Source: Candidatus Nitronereus thalassa (GTDB lineage: Bacteria; Nitrospirota; Nitrospiria; Nitrospirales; UBA8639). Taken from it: DNA of 64,000 nt. The stretch is from positions 1,922,001 through 1,986,000 of the forward strand of contig NZ_JAQOUE010000001.1 in assembly GCF_032191465.1 (NCBI RefSeq), read 5' to 3'. Position numbers and translations under genes: made by a program. Positions within the stretch are counted from its first letter, which is position 1; each line of letters begins with the position of its first letter. Below are positions 49,854-64,000 of the stretch, one piece after another. The notes under the pieces were generated by a model. That model was not told where the DNA came from, did not search any database, and was given only the letters and a program-made list of their open reading frames with translations.

Positions 49854-50399
49854 TTAATTCTTGCCTAAAAACTTGAGGTAGGTGGCTTGGAGGGCGATGA
49901 TGGTTTTGCCATCTTTGATGGTCCCATCATTGATCAGCTCGATAGTTTTTTCGAGAGGCATCTCGATAATTTCTAACACCTCATCGTCACCAAGGTCTTG
50001 CGTTCCAGGCACGAGATCTTTCCCAATAAAAATATGTATGATCTCATCGGTGAACCCTGGTGTCGTAAAAAAACTTAACAGCGGTTCTAAGGTGCCAACC
50101 TTATAGCCGATCTCCTCCTCCACCTCTCGCATGGCGCAATCGCGTGGATCTTCTCCAGGATGAAGCTTTCCAGCAGGAATTTCATAGATATAGCCTCCGA
50201 CGGCGTGGCGATACTGTCGAATCATCACGACGGTTTGATTGTCTTTAAGCGGGACAACTGCCGAAGCTCCGGGGTGGGTGATCAGTTCTAACTCCGCAGT
50301 GGCTCCGTTTGGCAACGTTACGGTTTCCAGCGAAAGATCGATGATTTTCCCTTGATAGATATTCTTCTTCACGACGGCATTTTCCTTTGCTGGAATCAC
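49854..50399 (-). CDS. NUDIX hydrolase (ADP-ribose pyrophosphatase type)
   Basis: 181 aa. The NUDIX box GX5EX7REUXEEXGU is complete in 'AGKLHPGEDPRDCAMREVEE' then 'EIGYK'. The N-terminal 'YQGKIIDLSLETVTLPNGA' and 'VVMIRQYRHAVGGYIYEIPA' are typical of ADP-ribose pyrophosphatases, which hydrolyse ADP-ribose to AMP and ribose 5-phosphate. The start codon overlaps the gcvT stop by 4 nt, so translation is coupled. Confidence 0.92.
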   Translation of the reverse strand: MIPAKENAVVKKNIYQGKIIDLSLETVTLPNGATAELELITHPGASAVVPLKDNQTVVMIRQYRHAVGGYIYEIPAGKLHPGEDPRDCAMREVEEEIGYKVGTLEPLLSFFTTPGFTDEIIHIFIGKDLVPGTQDLGDDEVLEIIEMPLEKTIELINDGTIKDGKTIIALQATYLKFLGKN

Positions 50400-58200: not shown

Positions 58201-58431
58201 AGGGAAAATTCCATGTAAGAAATGAAAAATGTTATATATGGGCCATTGGCCAGTATGCGCCCATATCTTCCTGGCGCTTCATTTAAATTTAAGGGGGAGC
58301 AATATCGAAGTTGACTTGTTTCCCGTCATGGTCGATCTAGAATACAATATTTTTTGTGGAATCTAAACATCTTTTCCCTAAAAGTAGGATATTTATTTTT
58401 TCCCTCCGATTATTTTATTAGGATTTTCACA

Positions 58432-58471
58432 AAAAAAGGGCCGAGACTTTTATGTCTCGGCCCCTTTTTTT
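58432..58471 (-). terminator. Strong intrinsic terminator downstream of nxrB
   Basis: A perfect 10-bp GC-rich stem (58438-58447 with 58454-58463) with a 6-nt loop, extended by A/T pairs and flanked by A and T runs on both sides, so it can work in both directions. It ends the nxr transcript 30 nt after the nxrB stop. Confidence 0.95.
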
Positions 58472-58499: not shown

Positions 58500-59789
58500 T
58501 TACAACCAGGTGACGCGTTCGGCCGGCCGAATGTAAATCGGCTCTTCCACCTGCTGCCGTACCGCTTCTTTGCCGGACTTGTTGAAGCCCAACACCGTGT
58601 CGTTATACATCTGGAACCGTCGACCATGAATCTGGGTCTCGAAGACGAGGGGTCCAGGAATCACGTCATACCGGAAGATGATTTGTTGGCTGGCTCTCCA
58701 CAATTGGAGCACCGCTAACAATTCCCGGCTCGGCACCAAATACTTCTCAATCGCCGCATCCACGCCCGGCCCAAACATCTGCCGGATGTACCCCCGAGGT
58801 GCTTGCCGGGGTGGGATATAAAACCCATTCGGCTCTGTTCCCCATTGGGGATACAACGGTAACGCCACTTGTTCCACCCGAATGGTGTAATACAGTGGGT
58901 TCCAGCGATCTTCCGCCCACAGCCCATCTTCGCCAATCTTGACGAGGTTCTGTAAGCGAATCTTCCCCACGCACGCGGCCATACATCGCGTTTCCATCGG
59001 CTCCCCACCCGTGAGAGGATCTTTACCCTCCACCCGGGGGTAACACGCAATGCACTTCTCGGTCACCCGAGTCGTTCCACGATACATGGGCTTCTTGAAT
59101 GGGCATTGCTCCACGCACTTCTTGTACCCACGACACCGGTTTTGGTCGATCAACACGATCCCGTCTTCAGGCCGCTTGTAGATGGCCTTTCTTGGACAGG
59201 CGGCTAAACAGCCCGGATACGTACAGTGGTTACAAATCCGTTGGAGATAGAAGAAGTAGGTTTCATGCTCCGGCAAGCTGCTGCCTTGCATTTTCCAGGG
59301 TTCTTCTTTGGTAAACCCGGTTTTATCAATGCCTTCGACAATGGCCCGCATCGACGTCGCCGTGTCTTCATAAATATTCACAAACCGCCATTCTTGGTCT
59401 GTAGGAATGTAGCCGATGGCCGCTTGCCCAACTTTGGCACCCGCATCGAAAATGGTCATTCCTTCGAACACGCCATAGGGCGCATGGTGTTTGCGACCCA
59501 CACGGACGTTCCAGACTTGTCCGCCGGGATTGACTTGCTCGATCAACTGCGTGATTTTCACATCGTAGAACTGTGGATAGCCCCCGTACGGCTTGGTTTC
59601 CACATTGTTCCACCACATGTATTCCTGGCCTTTGGAGAACAACCAAGTCGACTTGTCGGCCATGGAACAGGTCTGACAGGCCAAACACCGATTGATATTG
59701 AACACAAAGGCAAACTGCCACTTCGGATGCCGTTCCTCATACGGATACAGCATCTTCCGTCCTAATTGCCAATTATATACTTCTGGCAT
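58500..59789 (-). CDS. nxrB: Nitrite oxidoreductase beta subunit
   Basis: 429 aa. It carries the electrons of nitrite oxidation through four Fe-S clusters, as in NarH-type beta subunits. Cys clusters: 35-38-41 ('CLACQTCSMADKSTW'), 186-189-194-198 ('CNHCTYPGCLAACPR'), 219-225-229 ('CRGYKKCVEQCPF') and 246-249-269-273 ('CIACYP' ... 'CMAACVGK'). No signal peptide: it is exported with NxrA as a Tat hitch-hiker in the periplasmic Nitrospira type. GGAGG lies 7 nt before the ATG. It follows nxrA after 111 bp that contain a perfect hairpin. Confidence 0.98.
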   Translation of the reverse strand: MPEVYNWQLGRKMLYPYEERHPKWQFAFVFNINRCLACQTCSMADKSTWLFSKGQEYMWWNNVETKPYGGYPQFYDVKITQLIEQVNPGGQVWNVRVGRKHHAPYGVFEGMTIFDAGAKVGQAAIGYIPTDQEWRFVNIYEDTATSMRAIVEGIDKTGFTKEEPWKMQGSSLPEHETYFFYLQRICNHCTYPGCLAACPRKAIYKRPEDGIVLIDQNRCRGYKKCVEQCPFKKPMYRGTTRVTEKCIACYPRVEGKDPLTGGEPMETRCMAACVGKIRLQNLVKIGEDGLWAEDRWNPLYYTIRVEQVALPLYPQWGTEPNGFYIPPRQAPRGYIRQMFGPGVDAAIEKYLVPSRELLAVLQLWRASQQIIFRYDVIPGPLVFETQIHGRRFQMYNDTVLGFNKSGKEAVRQQVEEPIYIRPAERVTWL

Positions 59790-59857
59790 GATTTCCTCCG
59801 TTTTTCTGAACCATTGTAAAGTTCAATTGGTAAAGTTCCACATTGTGATCTAGGAAT

Positions 59858-59889
59858 CTTGGAGAGGAAGAAAATTCTTCCTCTCCAAG
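59858..59889 (-). promoter_or_regulatory. Perfect 15-bp hairpin between nxrA and nxrB
   Basis: Arms CTTGGAGAGGAAGAA (59858-59872) and TTCTTCCTCTCCAAG (59875-59889) with only 2 nt between them. On the transcript it lies 12 nt after the nxrA stop and about 70 nt before nxrB. No U-run follows, so it is not a standard terminator. It is most likely an mRNA stability or processing element that lets nxrA and nxrB messages differ in amount. A short direct repeat GTAAAGTTC (59816-59824, 59830-59838) lies between it and nxrB. Confidence 0.85.
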
Positions 59890-59900
59890 CGTATTTCTTC

Positions 59901-62900
59901 TTACACCTTGATCTTAATGTGGTCGCCTTTGAGCCACTTGATCATGAACTCATTCTCCTGGCCAGGCGTAAACCCGGTTCGGACTGGCTCCCAGGGTCCG
60001 CGGCCTCCGATCCCACCGTCTTCTGCTTTGGTAATACGCATCAGACATTCTTTGGGTACGGTATTGACCGCATGGTTATCCACTTGGTACCCGAATTTAA
60101 ACTTCCATGCCACGGCATGTTTGCCGGGCAACGAGTCTAACTGATGCATGGGCATCAACCAATCCCGGGTAAAGGACTGTTGGGCCCCATACCGGAAGTT
60201 GGATTGATATCCCGTATCCATCGCAATCGCGCGTCCGTCTGGCCGCGTTTCATGCCCTTTCACCGATTTCGCGGTGGACACATAGGGCGCATGTTTCGCC
60301 ATGGTCACATGGTATGGGAAGGCTGGATTGTACTTCGCCCGAATCATCAACCGCGCTACTTTGTAGTACGGATCTGAGGGCTTCCACCCACGATACGGAC
60401 GATCCACTGGGTTCCCATCGACGTAGACATAGTCCCCGTCGTTGATACCCCGGTCTTTAGCCGCTTGCGGATTCACATGCAATTGATGTTCACCCACACC
60501 CGGCGTCCGTTTATCCATCCGATACGCATCCCCGAAGTTGGATTCATACATCTGCACCCAGTCATTGACGGACCATTGACTGTGCACCCGATGCCGCGTC
60601 TTCGGCGTCACACAATAGAACTGATACCCTTTTTCCCAGAGTGGGTTGGAGTACCGTTTGATTTCCGCCCACGGCAACGCAATGTTCCGCACCGTTTTAT
60701 CATCATGATGCTGAGCCGTGATGGGAATCCCGTAGTCATCCGGCCGCACATACGGGTTGGTCGTCATGATCGCATTGGGCAGATAGGGCGTGGCTTCCGT
60801 CCCTTCCCGATGCGAAATGAAGTTTTCCCCATACTCAATGGCTTCCGGCTCGATGCGGTAGTTTTCATACCGACCGGTCCGCGTCCATTGGGGCTTGGAT
60901 TCGTTGGTTTCTTCCCAGAATGGCTGCCGGGGATAGGTCCGGCTCATCACCATCCAGCCTTTTTCCGACTTCAGCATGGTATCCACGCTGTAGCCATAGG
61001 CCGTCGAGCTCGCATCCAACAACCGCTGCACGTACACATCGACCCGATTGTCATACACAAACTTGAAGTAATCCCGGAACCGACGATCGCCCGTCATTTC
61101 CGTGAGCTTCGCGGCCACACCCGCCACTGTATCCAAGTCATTCCGAGTATCGTAGAGAGGCCGAATGCCACCCTTCCACACTTGGAACCACGGATTGGAC
61201 ACGGTCGCGGTGTGTTCGGGATAGGTAAATTCCATCCACGTGTTGACCCCCATGGCCACGTCATTGTGGTTGACGTCTGACGTCATTTCCACATCCTGCG
61301 TGATCAAGGTTTCAATGTGCGGATCCACGTTTTTCACCATGTCATAGTGATGTTTGGCGTTGTTCAACACGTTCACGTTCGCCACCCAACGGAATTTACT
61401 TGGGGTTGGCATATGGGTCTTCCCGGTAAACACCCGGCGACCATACTTCGGCGTGTTCACAATCAACGCCGTATCCCCATGGTTCCAATAGGCGACTTCC
61501 TCACCGTAGTAGTACCCACGCACATGCACTTCTTTTCCATGCGCATTGGGGTCCAAGGTGATTTTGAAGGGATTTTCTGCGGTATGGGTCCCAAGACCAC
61601 CACCGCCCCATGGCGTGGCATTCCAAATCCCCGCTTTGTAGTTTCCGGCCCAGGTATGCTGCCCGGTGCCGAATTTCCCGACGTTCCCCGTGATGATCAA
61701 CACCATCGCGGCTCCGCGAGCAATAATCGTTTGATGGAAATAGTGGTTCGTGCCTTCCCCGTTATGAATGGCGGCCGGCTTGACCGTCCCACTATCCCGT
61801 GCCCAGCGGACGATCAAGTCCTTCGGGGCCCGGTTGATCTGATGCACCGTGTCCAAATCGTAATCCTGCAAATGCGCTTGATACATTTGGAACACTGGCA
61901 ACACGTCCACTTCACGCCCATTCAATAACTTCACCCGATAGGACCCGGTCATCGCCGGTTCAATACCGCTATTCCGGAAATGCCAGCCCACCAATTCCCG
62001 ATGAATCGGCACCGCCGCACCTTTATTAATATCCCAGACCATAAACCCACCGAGGCGGGCAATTTTGGCGGGGTCCAAGGTTTGCACTTTCCCTGAATAG
62101 GTCTTCGAGAAATCTGGCAACTGATACCCTTGGATCACATCCCGAGGATCTAAATATTGCAACGTATCCGACCGCACCAAGATGGGCATATCGGTATACG
62201 CCGAACAGAAATCATGGTCATGCATGTTTTCATCAAAGATGATTTTACACGCCCCTAAGAATAACGCTCCATCCGTGGCCGGTCGCACCGGAATCCAGTA
62301 ATCCGCCCGATACGCCGTGGGATTGTATTCCGGAGTAATGACCACACACCGGGCACCCCGCTCAATGCTCTCCAGCTTCCAGTGGGCTTCCGGCATCTTG
62401 TTTTCTACGAAGTTCTTCCCCCAGCTGGTATTCAACTTCGAAAACCGCATGTCGTTCATGTCGACGTCAGAGGCCTGGATACCGCACCAGAACGGATGGG
62501 CTGGGTTTTGGTCCCCATGCCAGGTATAGTTCGACCAATACCGGCCACCCTGAGCTTGGTTGGGTTGGACTTTCCGAATGTAGGTGTCGAGCAATGCCCC
62601 GCACCCTCCGTTCATCCGGGTGATCCCCATCTTCCCGATCACGCCCAAAATCGGCATCCCAGCCCGGAACTTCATACACCGGACACCAGAGCCTTTGGAC
62701 ATTTCAATCATTTCCGGGGGATAGCCTTGCTCCCGCAACCGACGGGCCCCGGCTTCGCCACTGTACCGCTCGGCAATGATCAACATCGCCTTGGCGATAT
62801 AGGTAAACGCCGTATCCCAACTCACCCGCAACATGTCATCGAGATATCGGGCATTGAATTTATATTTGCTCATCACGTCTGGCGTGAATTCGGGGCTCCC

Positions 62901-63338
62901 CGCATCCATCCAGGCTTTCCAGCCACGCCGCATCAACGGGCCCTTCAACCGATACGGGCCATACACCCGTCGGTGCATCGTGTAGCCCTTCAAGCACATC
63001 CGAGGATTGTGCGCGAACGTGCCGCGATTGCCGTAGAGATCTTCATAGGTTTGGTGATCGTAGTTTTGCTCCACCCGCATCACCACGCCGTTCCGGACGA
63101 AGGCCCGAATCCGGCAGGCATGGGTATCGTTCGGGGAACAACACCAGGTAAAGGATGAATCATAGCGGTACTGATCGTGGTACACCCGCTCCCAGGCACG
63201 GTCCGGATACTCACCCAGTGGATTGCCCACTTCGATGACCGGCTGTAACGCCGTCAACGCCAACGCCTTATCGGCCAACGCCACGGCAGCCACCGTCCCC
63301 GTGGTGACCTTTAAAAACTGTCTTCTAGAAAGAAACAT
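59901..63338 (-). CDS. nxrA: Nitrite oxidoreductase alpha (catalytic) subunit
   Basis: 1145 aa from the ATG at 63338, chosen because GAGGAGG lies 8 nt upstream and the protein then starts with a twin-arginine signal ('SRRQFLK', hydrophobic about 11-28). It belongs to the type II DMSO reductase family and oxidises nitrite to nitrate at a Mo-bis-MGD centre. The N-terminal Fe-S region has Cys66, Cys67, His73, Cys75 ('WCCSPNDTHACRIRAF') and Cys115 ('NPRMCLKGY'). The likely Mo ligand is the Asp in 'YTWHGDQNPAHPF', aligned with the NarG Asp. Codon use is strongly GC-biased at third positions, leaving long antisense open frames; this fits high expression. It forms an operon with nxrB. Confidence 0.98.
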   Translation of the reverse strand: MFLSRRQFLKVTTGTVAAVALADKALALTALQPVIEVGNPLGEYPDRAWERVYHDQYRYDSSFTWCCSPNDTHACRIRAFVRNGVVMRVEQNYDHQTYEDLYGNRGTFAHNPRMCLKGYTMHRRVYGPYRLKGPLMRRGWKAWMDAGSPEFTPDVMSKYKFNARYLDDMLRVSWDTAFTYIAKAMLIIAERYSGEAGARRLREQGYPPEMIEMSKGSGVRCMKFRAGMPILGVIGKMGITRMNGGCGALLDTYIRKVQPNQAQGGRYWSNYTWHGDQNPAHPFWCGIQASDVDMNDMRFSKLNTSWGKNFVENKMPEAHWKLESIERGARCVVITPEYNPTAYRADYWIPVRPATDGALFLGACKIIFDENMHDHDFCSAYTDMPILVRSDTLQYLDPRDVIQGYQLPDFSKTYSGKVQTLDPAKIARLGGFMVWDINKGAAVPIHRELVGWHFRNSGIEPAMTGSYRVKLLNGREVDVLPVFQMYQAHLQDYDLDTVHQINRAPKDLIVRWARDSGTVKPAAIHNGEGTNHYFHQTIIARGAAMVLIITGNVGKFGTGQHTWAGNYKAGIWNATPWGGGGLGTHTAENPFKITLDPNAHGKEVHVRGYYYGEEVAYWNHGDTALIVNTPKYGRRVFTGKTHMPTPSKFRWVANVNVLNNAKHHYDMVKNVDPHIETLITQDVEMTSDVNHNDVAMGVNTWMEFTYPEHTATVSNPWFQVWKGGIRPLYDTRNDLDTVAGVAAKLTEMTGDRRFRDYFKFVYDNRVDVYVQRLLDASSTAYGYSVDTMLKSEKGWMVMSRTYPRQPFWEETNESKPQWTRTGRYENYRIEPEAIEYGENFISHREGTEATPYLPNAIMTTNPYVRPDDYGIPITAQHHDDKTVRNIALPWAEIKRYSNPLWEKGYQFYCVTPKTRHRVHSQWSVNDWVQMYESNFGDAYRMDKRTPGVGEHQLHVNPQAAKDRGINDGDYVYVDGNPVDRPYRGWKPSDPYYKVARLMIRAKYNPAFPYHVTMAKHAPYVSTAKSVKGHETRPDGRAIAMDTGYQSNFRYGAQQSFTRDWLMPMHQLDSLPGKHAVAWKFKFGYQVDNHAVNTVPKECLMRITKAEDGGIGGRGPWEPVRTGFTPGQENEFMIKWLKGDHIKIKV

Positions 63339-64000
63339 TGCAGATACCTCCTCGTGTAAAGGCTGCCTCATTACAGCCTAACGTGGAATACGTTAAACAT
63401 AAAAAAGTCCCTTTGACAGGGAAACGCTAACCTTACCACCTCCCCTCTGCTGAACTTCGTTTGTTTTTAATGTAAAAATCATCATGAATCTACCAAATAA
63501 ATATAGTTACTAATCAAGCAAATATTGAGCCATACAAAACACCAATGCCTTTTAATCATAACTTGTTGAATTAAAATACTAAATCATGATTTCTCACATA
63601 TGAAGACTTTAATAATATGTTTCCAAAAGGTACCATCACATTTTATAAATTTTCCACCAATACGGTAATATTTAAGTGTTCTTATACAACAAAAATACAA
63701 TTTTAATTCATAAAAACAATTAGTTAAGAATATTCTACAAAAAGTAATTTCAATATAAGAAAATGAAAATAATAAGACACATTCTATTGATTACTTTTGG
63801 TAACATTAAGAGATTAACCTATTAAGATATTGAAACAAATTAAATTTTTAAAATAATGCACACAAAAATTCGTTAATGATTTTGAAATTTCATAAATGAA
63901 ACAGATAAATTGTAGGAGAAGTGAATATTCAATCGTTAAACCACAAATTGTTACTGAAAGGTAGCAAATTAAAAACCAGTAAATAACCCATTCCTATTCA
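63339..64000. other. AT-rich nxrA upstream region
   Basis: About 660 bp without any gene. From about 63440 to the window end it is very AT-rich (roughly three-quarters by eye), in sharp contrast to the rest. It should contain the nxr promoter. No confident sigma-70 or sigma-54 promoter was assigned. Confidence 0.7.
63380..63422 (-). promoter_or_regulatory. Tandem small hairpins in the nxrA leader
   Basis: Two 5-bp hairpins lie 40-85 nt before the nxrA start. One is AACGT/ACGTT at 63380-63394. The other is TCCCT/AGGGA at 63408-63422, followed on the transcript by CTTTTTTA, which makes it look like a weak intrinsic terminator. They may form an attenuator-like leader; the stems are short. Confidence 0.4.

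Follow-up and report, generated by a model that had tools for sequence, protein, structure and literature searches.

The closest precedent for the arrangement described here is s-SodF of Streptomyces coelicolor, a 3′UTR-derived sRNA directed against sodN. There the 3′ region of one isoenzyme mRNA has complementarity, over a 19-bp duplex, with the 5′ region of the mRNA for the second isoenzyme, giving an isoenzyme switch (PMC9438474). Further 3′ RNAs come from operons and repress translation through pairing: NarS, which cross-regulates nitrite uptake (PMC9438474), and OppZ and CarZ of Vibrio cholerae, which target their own transcripts and arise through RNase E (PMC7398697). A second kind of precedent is the stem-loop that closes a first cistron at its 3′ end, seen in the highly expressed first cistron of the enzyme-complex operon cip-cel of C. 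cellulolyticum (PMC4423207) and, as an intercistronic stem-loop, in differential decay in E. coli (PMC5927463).

Here we analyse a window of 64,000 nucleotides from Candidatus Nitronereus thalassa, whose genome encodes nxrAB three times over, each time with the same NxrB protein: the window's copy (W) and the sisters P92 (locus L092) and P93 (locus L093). The nxr case resembles s-SodF in having 3′ sequence complementary to the 5′ region of another isoenzyme's mRNA, NarS, OppZ and CarZ in its operon setting and its proposed repression of translation through pairing, and cip-cel and the E. coli case in its stem-loop after the first cistron. Unlike s-SodF, nxr has three near-identical copies in an apparent order, with the element lying mid-operon inside a hairpin, and our evidence for it is from sequence, whereas RNA ends and decay were measured for cip-cel and E. 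coli. Unlike OppZ and CarZ, the nxr elements have a weaker predicted pairing with the nxrA of their own copy than with that of a different one, and our search returned no Hfq; an RNase E/G gene is present in the genome. A mostly shallow survey of published work on nxrA and nxrB found nothing pointing to such an element after nxrA. We give a probability of roughly 55% to an explanation in which the window's hairpin would be a 3′ stem-loop of nxrA, while antisense RNA from a sister copy would silence the window's operon as the default copy. The features of the operon are as follows.

58431..58470, minus strand: terminator-like hairpin with T-run, 3′ of nxrB, a palindrome
58500..59789, minus strand: nxrB, encoding the Fe-S beta subunit, the same protein in 3 of 3 copies of the genome
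59790..59900, minus strand: nxrA-nxrB gap, 111 bp, containing the hairpin and the nxrB Shine-Dalgarno sequence
59858..59889, minus strand: intercistronic stem-loop 3′ of nxrA, 14 bp with a 4-nt loop as RNA, a 15-bp perfect palindrome as DNA
59901..63338, minus strand: nxrA, molybdopterin oxidoreductase, alpha subunit, with GGAGG at 63351-63347 before the start
63517..63532, minus strand: match to a sigma-54-like promoter (TGGC-N7-TTGC), upstream of nxrA

The nxr naming follows an earlier note on this DNA and matches to Nitrospira loci, and the products carry molybdopterin oxidoreductase (nxrA) and 4Fe-4S (nxrB) domains. The nxrA open frame covers 59901-63371 on the minus strand, with 63338 as the likely start. 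Upstream of nxrA, positions 63380-64000 form a long A+T-rich stretch holding one match to a sigma-54-like promoter motif; of 15 nxrA starts examined, the window's alone has this motif, perhaps by chance. A small inverted repeat, TTGAAC...GGTTCA, lies directly before the nxrB Shine-Dalgarno sequence (about 59806-59825, minus strand) and recurs in genus g2, with a matching change on both sides in L018/L112.

The arms of the palindrome, 59858-59872 and 59875-59889, match at every one of their 15 bp (100%) and are separated by 2 nt, and the gap that holds it is 111 bp long, both as the earlier note had it. Since a 2-nt loop is impossible in RNA, the transcript instead forms a 14-bp stem closed by a 4-nt loop, with a stem energy of about −23 kcal/mol. 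On the minus-strand transcript the hairpin starts 11 nt past the nxrA stop, and it is the sole perfect inverted repeat of at least 13 nt (distance up to 60) between window positions 50000 and 64000. Folding of the gap gave a z-score of −5.3, with none of 200 dinucleotide shuffles equally stable; the plus strand of a slightly larger stretch around the hairpin gave −3.1.

The absence of a terminator U-run, also claimed earlier, was confirmed, as ATTCCTAGA follows the stem on the transcript strand; the candidate of an intrinsic terminator, taken as a G+C-rich hairpin followed by a U-run, was rejected on this basis. A wider version, in which an intrinsic or partial terminator or attenuator reduces nxrB relative to nxrA, could draw on the strength of the stem and on the equivalent hairpin of sister copies, which often does have a U-run (7 of 9 T in L093 and L105). 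We judge it improbable, as the window's hairpin has no such run, the T-run hairpin of the operon (58431-58470, ending in seven T on the transcript strand) sits past nxrB, and among the strong simple hairpins that follow nxrA, 0 of 41 show five or more T in the 9 nt past the stem, making termination unlikely. After nxrB, at least 10 of 71 have five or more T, an underestimate in that the script pairs A-runs with the T-run. For N. moscoviensis, Table 2 of PMC6606698 gives RPKM values whose nxrA/nxrB ratio varies between copies, a difference that, with the locus tags unmatched to loci, does not bear on the hairpin.

Relatives were sampled through 48 genomes of the family, 39 of which have an nxrB match. 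From these, 80 contig loci and further stretches we collected 91 distinct nxrA-nxrB gaps; another five nxrB starts, for which no nxrA end was in hand, stand outside this set. With the first 100 nt or less of each gap folded, z was below −2 in 53 of the 91. Among gaps of 55-125 nt the count was 42 of 78, versus 8 of 45 other co-directional gaps, in rows that are not independent by descent; several of these 8 begin just past an nxrB match (e.g. L013, L014, L034 and L064) and are probably nxrB terminators. In the gaps of other Nitrospira (L029, L043, L064, L072, L076 and L083), GTGACG/GTGAAGCG-type repeats fold into long hairpins.

Of the two other genomes in the genus, G002 has an nxrB match and carries a hairpin of this kind in the same place, and G001, 64% complete, has no nxrB match. 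Between G002 and the window, 14 of 28 arm positions have changed while all 14 pairs are intact and none is broken (both bases are substituted in 6 pairs, one base in 2 and neither in 6), and random substitution retained every pair in 22 of 200,000 trials, for a register chosen by hand. Of the 11 distinct gaps in the neighbouring genus g2, 9 are without the hairpin and shorter (65-75 bp). Taken together, the intact pairs in G002 and the missing hairpin in g2 indicate that pairing is selected where present, yet dispensable. No conservation of the hairpin sequence was seen, some close relatives are without the hairpin, and covariation in four sequences of genus g10 was weak, with 33 of 500 shuffles equally high. 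The earlier note had read the palindrome as an RNA-level element: this stands insofar as pairing is kept in the congener and such structures recur after nxrA across Nitrospirales, while strict conservation failed in both g2 and the sequence itself. Searching the genome with the hairpin returned only itself, ruling out a dispersed palindromic repeat. Insertion of a palindromic mobile or repeat element into the gap might be suspected from the differing presence and absence among close relatives and from the GTGACG-type repeats of other Nitrospira, but it sits poorly with the single genomic copy and the paired substitutions in the congener, and we consider it very unlikely.

What was found is a structure directly past the upstream stop with conserved pairing, the pattern sought for an intercistronic stabiliser or processing stem-loop, and on this comparative evidence the window hairpin is a recurrent pairing-selected intercistronic stem-loop. 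Its most likely role, judging from these features, would be protection of the 3′ end with separated decay of nxrA and nxrB. Under this proposal the hairpin would serve the nxrA cistron as a non-terminating, intercistronic 3′ stem-loop selected for base pairing and not sequence, and would protect the nxrA 3′ end by blocking 3′-to-5′ exonucleases; cleavage in the A/U-rich stretch before nxrB would then be followed by separate decay of the nxrA and nxrB segments.

Comparison of the gap with other nxr copies, the check proposed in the earlier note, turned up antisense elements at the corresponding position after nxrA in the sister copies. The P92 and P93 gaps are about 512 bp long and contain a large hairpin past nxrA, then a CheY-like receiver gene (PF00072), then the nxrB Shine-Dalgarno sequence.

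L092:3960-4472 and L093:4291-4802 (genome G000): gap with stand-alone response-regulator receiver gene

Similar large-hairpin copies, in which a response-regulator gene usually comes next, occur in G023, G028, G029 and G047. A stand-alone receiver gene also lies between nxrA and nxrB in L105, L106, L110, L124, L127, L131 and L036, the last from another Nitrospira and with its nxrA start outside the locus; L130 of G023 has the element and no receiver gene. Read in reverse complement, the inner hairpin sequence of the sister elements gives the ribosome-binding site of nxrA and its first codons. A pattern written from the elements gave 54 matches in the 48 genomes: 11 elements directly past nxrA (in 7 genomes), 40 nxrA starts (one, in G042, inferred) and 2 unrelated, with G021:C57 left unsorted. 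The P92 and P93 elements fall outside the pattern and were found by position. Rfam searches over 10 sources gave six weak hits, none at the gathering score; for nxr copies other than the window's there was a single weak hit, on the opposite strand of L092 and outside the element.

We scored each element against nxrA starts (copies lettered A, B, C and X, Y, Z besides W, P92 and P93). Contiguous antisense pairs number 20-27 in two of three genera and 13 in the third, the short runs being those of G023. Elements of A copies gave duplex energies of −54.3, −57.8 and −56.2 with the nxrA of B and −50.5 to −52.1 with that of C; elements of B copies gave −69.4 to −69.9 with C and −50.0 to −57.5 with B; the X element gave −77.1 with Z and −56.8 with X, and the Y element −55.6 with Z and −54.5 with X. 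In all of these, 0 of 200 shuffles were as strong. For the window's nxrA the predicted site is the following.

63332..63351, minus strand: predicted antisense target, comprising the nxrA Shine-Dalgarno sequence, spacer and first codons, with 20 contiguous pairs (2 G-U) to the P93 element

The P93 element reaches −53.3 against the window's nxrA (1 of 200 shuffles as strong), versus 163 of 200 shuffles as strong against its own. Its 20-pair run, at positions −13 to +7, is the longest in the window on either strand, and 1000 shuffles reached at most 17. Among 38 starts, itself included, the window's nxrA ranks first without standing out by energy, the runner-up lying close behind (−53.3 versus −52.5; cofold −10.7 versus −10.2, the latter for an unrelated start), and blastn gave the P93 antisense match in the window's genome an E-value of 0.72. 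The P92 element appears degenerate: it scores −41.8 with the window's nxrA (8 of 200 shuffles) and −39.5 with its own (10 of 200), ranks the window's nxrA, in duplex energy, behind at least five further starts in the window, and has almost no cofold gain (−3.3 versus −2.8). The sister copies thus show complementarity to a translation-initiation region beyond chance, as looked for in a 3′UTR-derived antisense RNA. No antisense was found between the window's hairpin and nxrA starts, with 170 (W), 39 (P92) and 166 (P93) of 200 shuffles as strong, and the hairpin was rejected as a 3′UTR-derived antisense sRNA on these counts. The simple-hairpin copies W, C and Z gave no significant antisense, the lowest shuffle count being 11 of 200 (C to A in G029).

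An element acting in cis, with the 3′ region of nxrA folding back onto its own start, would account for the strong self duplexes (B to B −50 to −57, X to X −57). We hold this to be highly improbable: there is no match between the A, Y and P93 elements and the starts of their own copies, and with internal folding counted the best cofold target was non-self in 10 of 10 elements tested. Across the 66 of 91 gaps with an nxrA start in hand (25 being left out), one gap had antisense to its own start that no more than 1 of 60 shuffles equalled, and the median z was +0.35; this set includes the window, P92 and P93, and therefore says nothing on trans targets.

The sister elements could instead be functionless relics of an inverted duplication of the nxrA start, which we consider unlikely, though a reading with some weight. 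Their boundaries, from the Shine-Dalgarno sequence to about codon 8, are common to the genera, as common descent predicts, and P92 appears decayed. Against this reading, G047 and G028/G029 share 93-96% identity in the elements and 97% in the 34-nt antisense core, versus 54-57% in the next 100 nt (the L185 element and L126 nxrA tail being left out of this comparison as script artefacts). A copy's own start never makes the best partner, and in two genera the spacer between the Shine-Dalgarno sequence and the start agrees with the genus's own target, TATCTGCA in P93 and W and TGCATGCA in X and Z; in g10 the spacers differ (TATTCGCA versus TGTAAGCA).

Set against relics and folding in cis, the hairpin of the sister copies looks, from its complementarity, like an antisense switch against another copy's nxrA. 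When a sister copy is transcribed, the 3′ region of its nxrA would pair with the start of nxrA in a lower-ranking copy and block its translation, the lower-ranking copy here being the window's, which would be the default operon that gets silenced. More generally, we see about even chances that marine Nitrospirales with several nxrAB operons silence the lower-ranking nxrA by antisense RNA from the hairpin after nxrA, in the order A to B, B to C and P93 to the window, one isoform at a time; the adjoining response-regulator gene may link the silencing to a signal such as oxygen or nitrite.

Published proteomes of N. marina bear on this order. All seven copy-specific N. marina peptides are encoded in G029, a different strain from Nb-295 (4.80 versus 4.68 Mb), assigning NxrA_1 to copy C, NxrA_2 to A and NxrA_3 to B; in G047 the same peptides do not separate B and C. 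In PMC8115632, NxrA_3 is in air the most abundant of the three, and it declines at low O2 (4860 to 3741, 4519 to 3400 and 1761 to 1261), NxrA_2 also falls (1154 to 851), and NxrA_1 rises about 1.9-2.3-fold (845 to 1924, 241 to 451 and 673 to 1571). The shift agrees with repression of C by B, and is no proof of it; its cause could be transcriptional instead.

These elements bear on why Nitrospira retain several near-identical nitrite oxidoreductase copies and on how one copy is chosen over another. Paralogue-specific antisense after nxrA would supply a concrete rule for which copy silences which and, if true, would mean post-transcriptional control of the key enzyme in a group driving nitrite oxidation.
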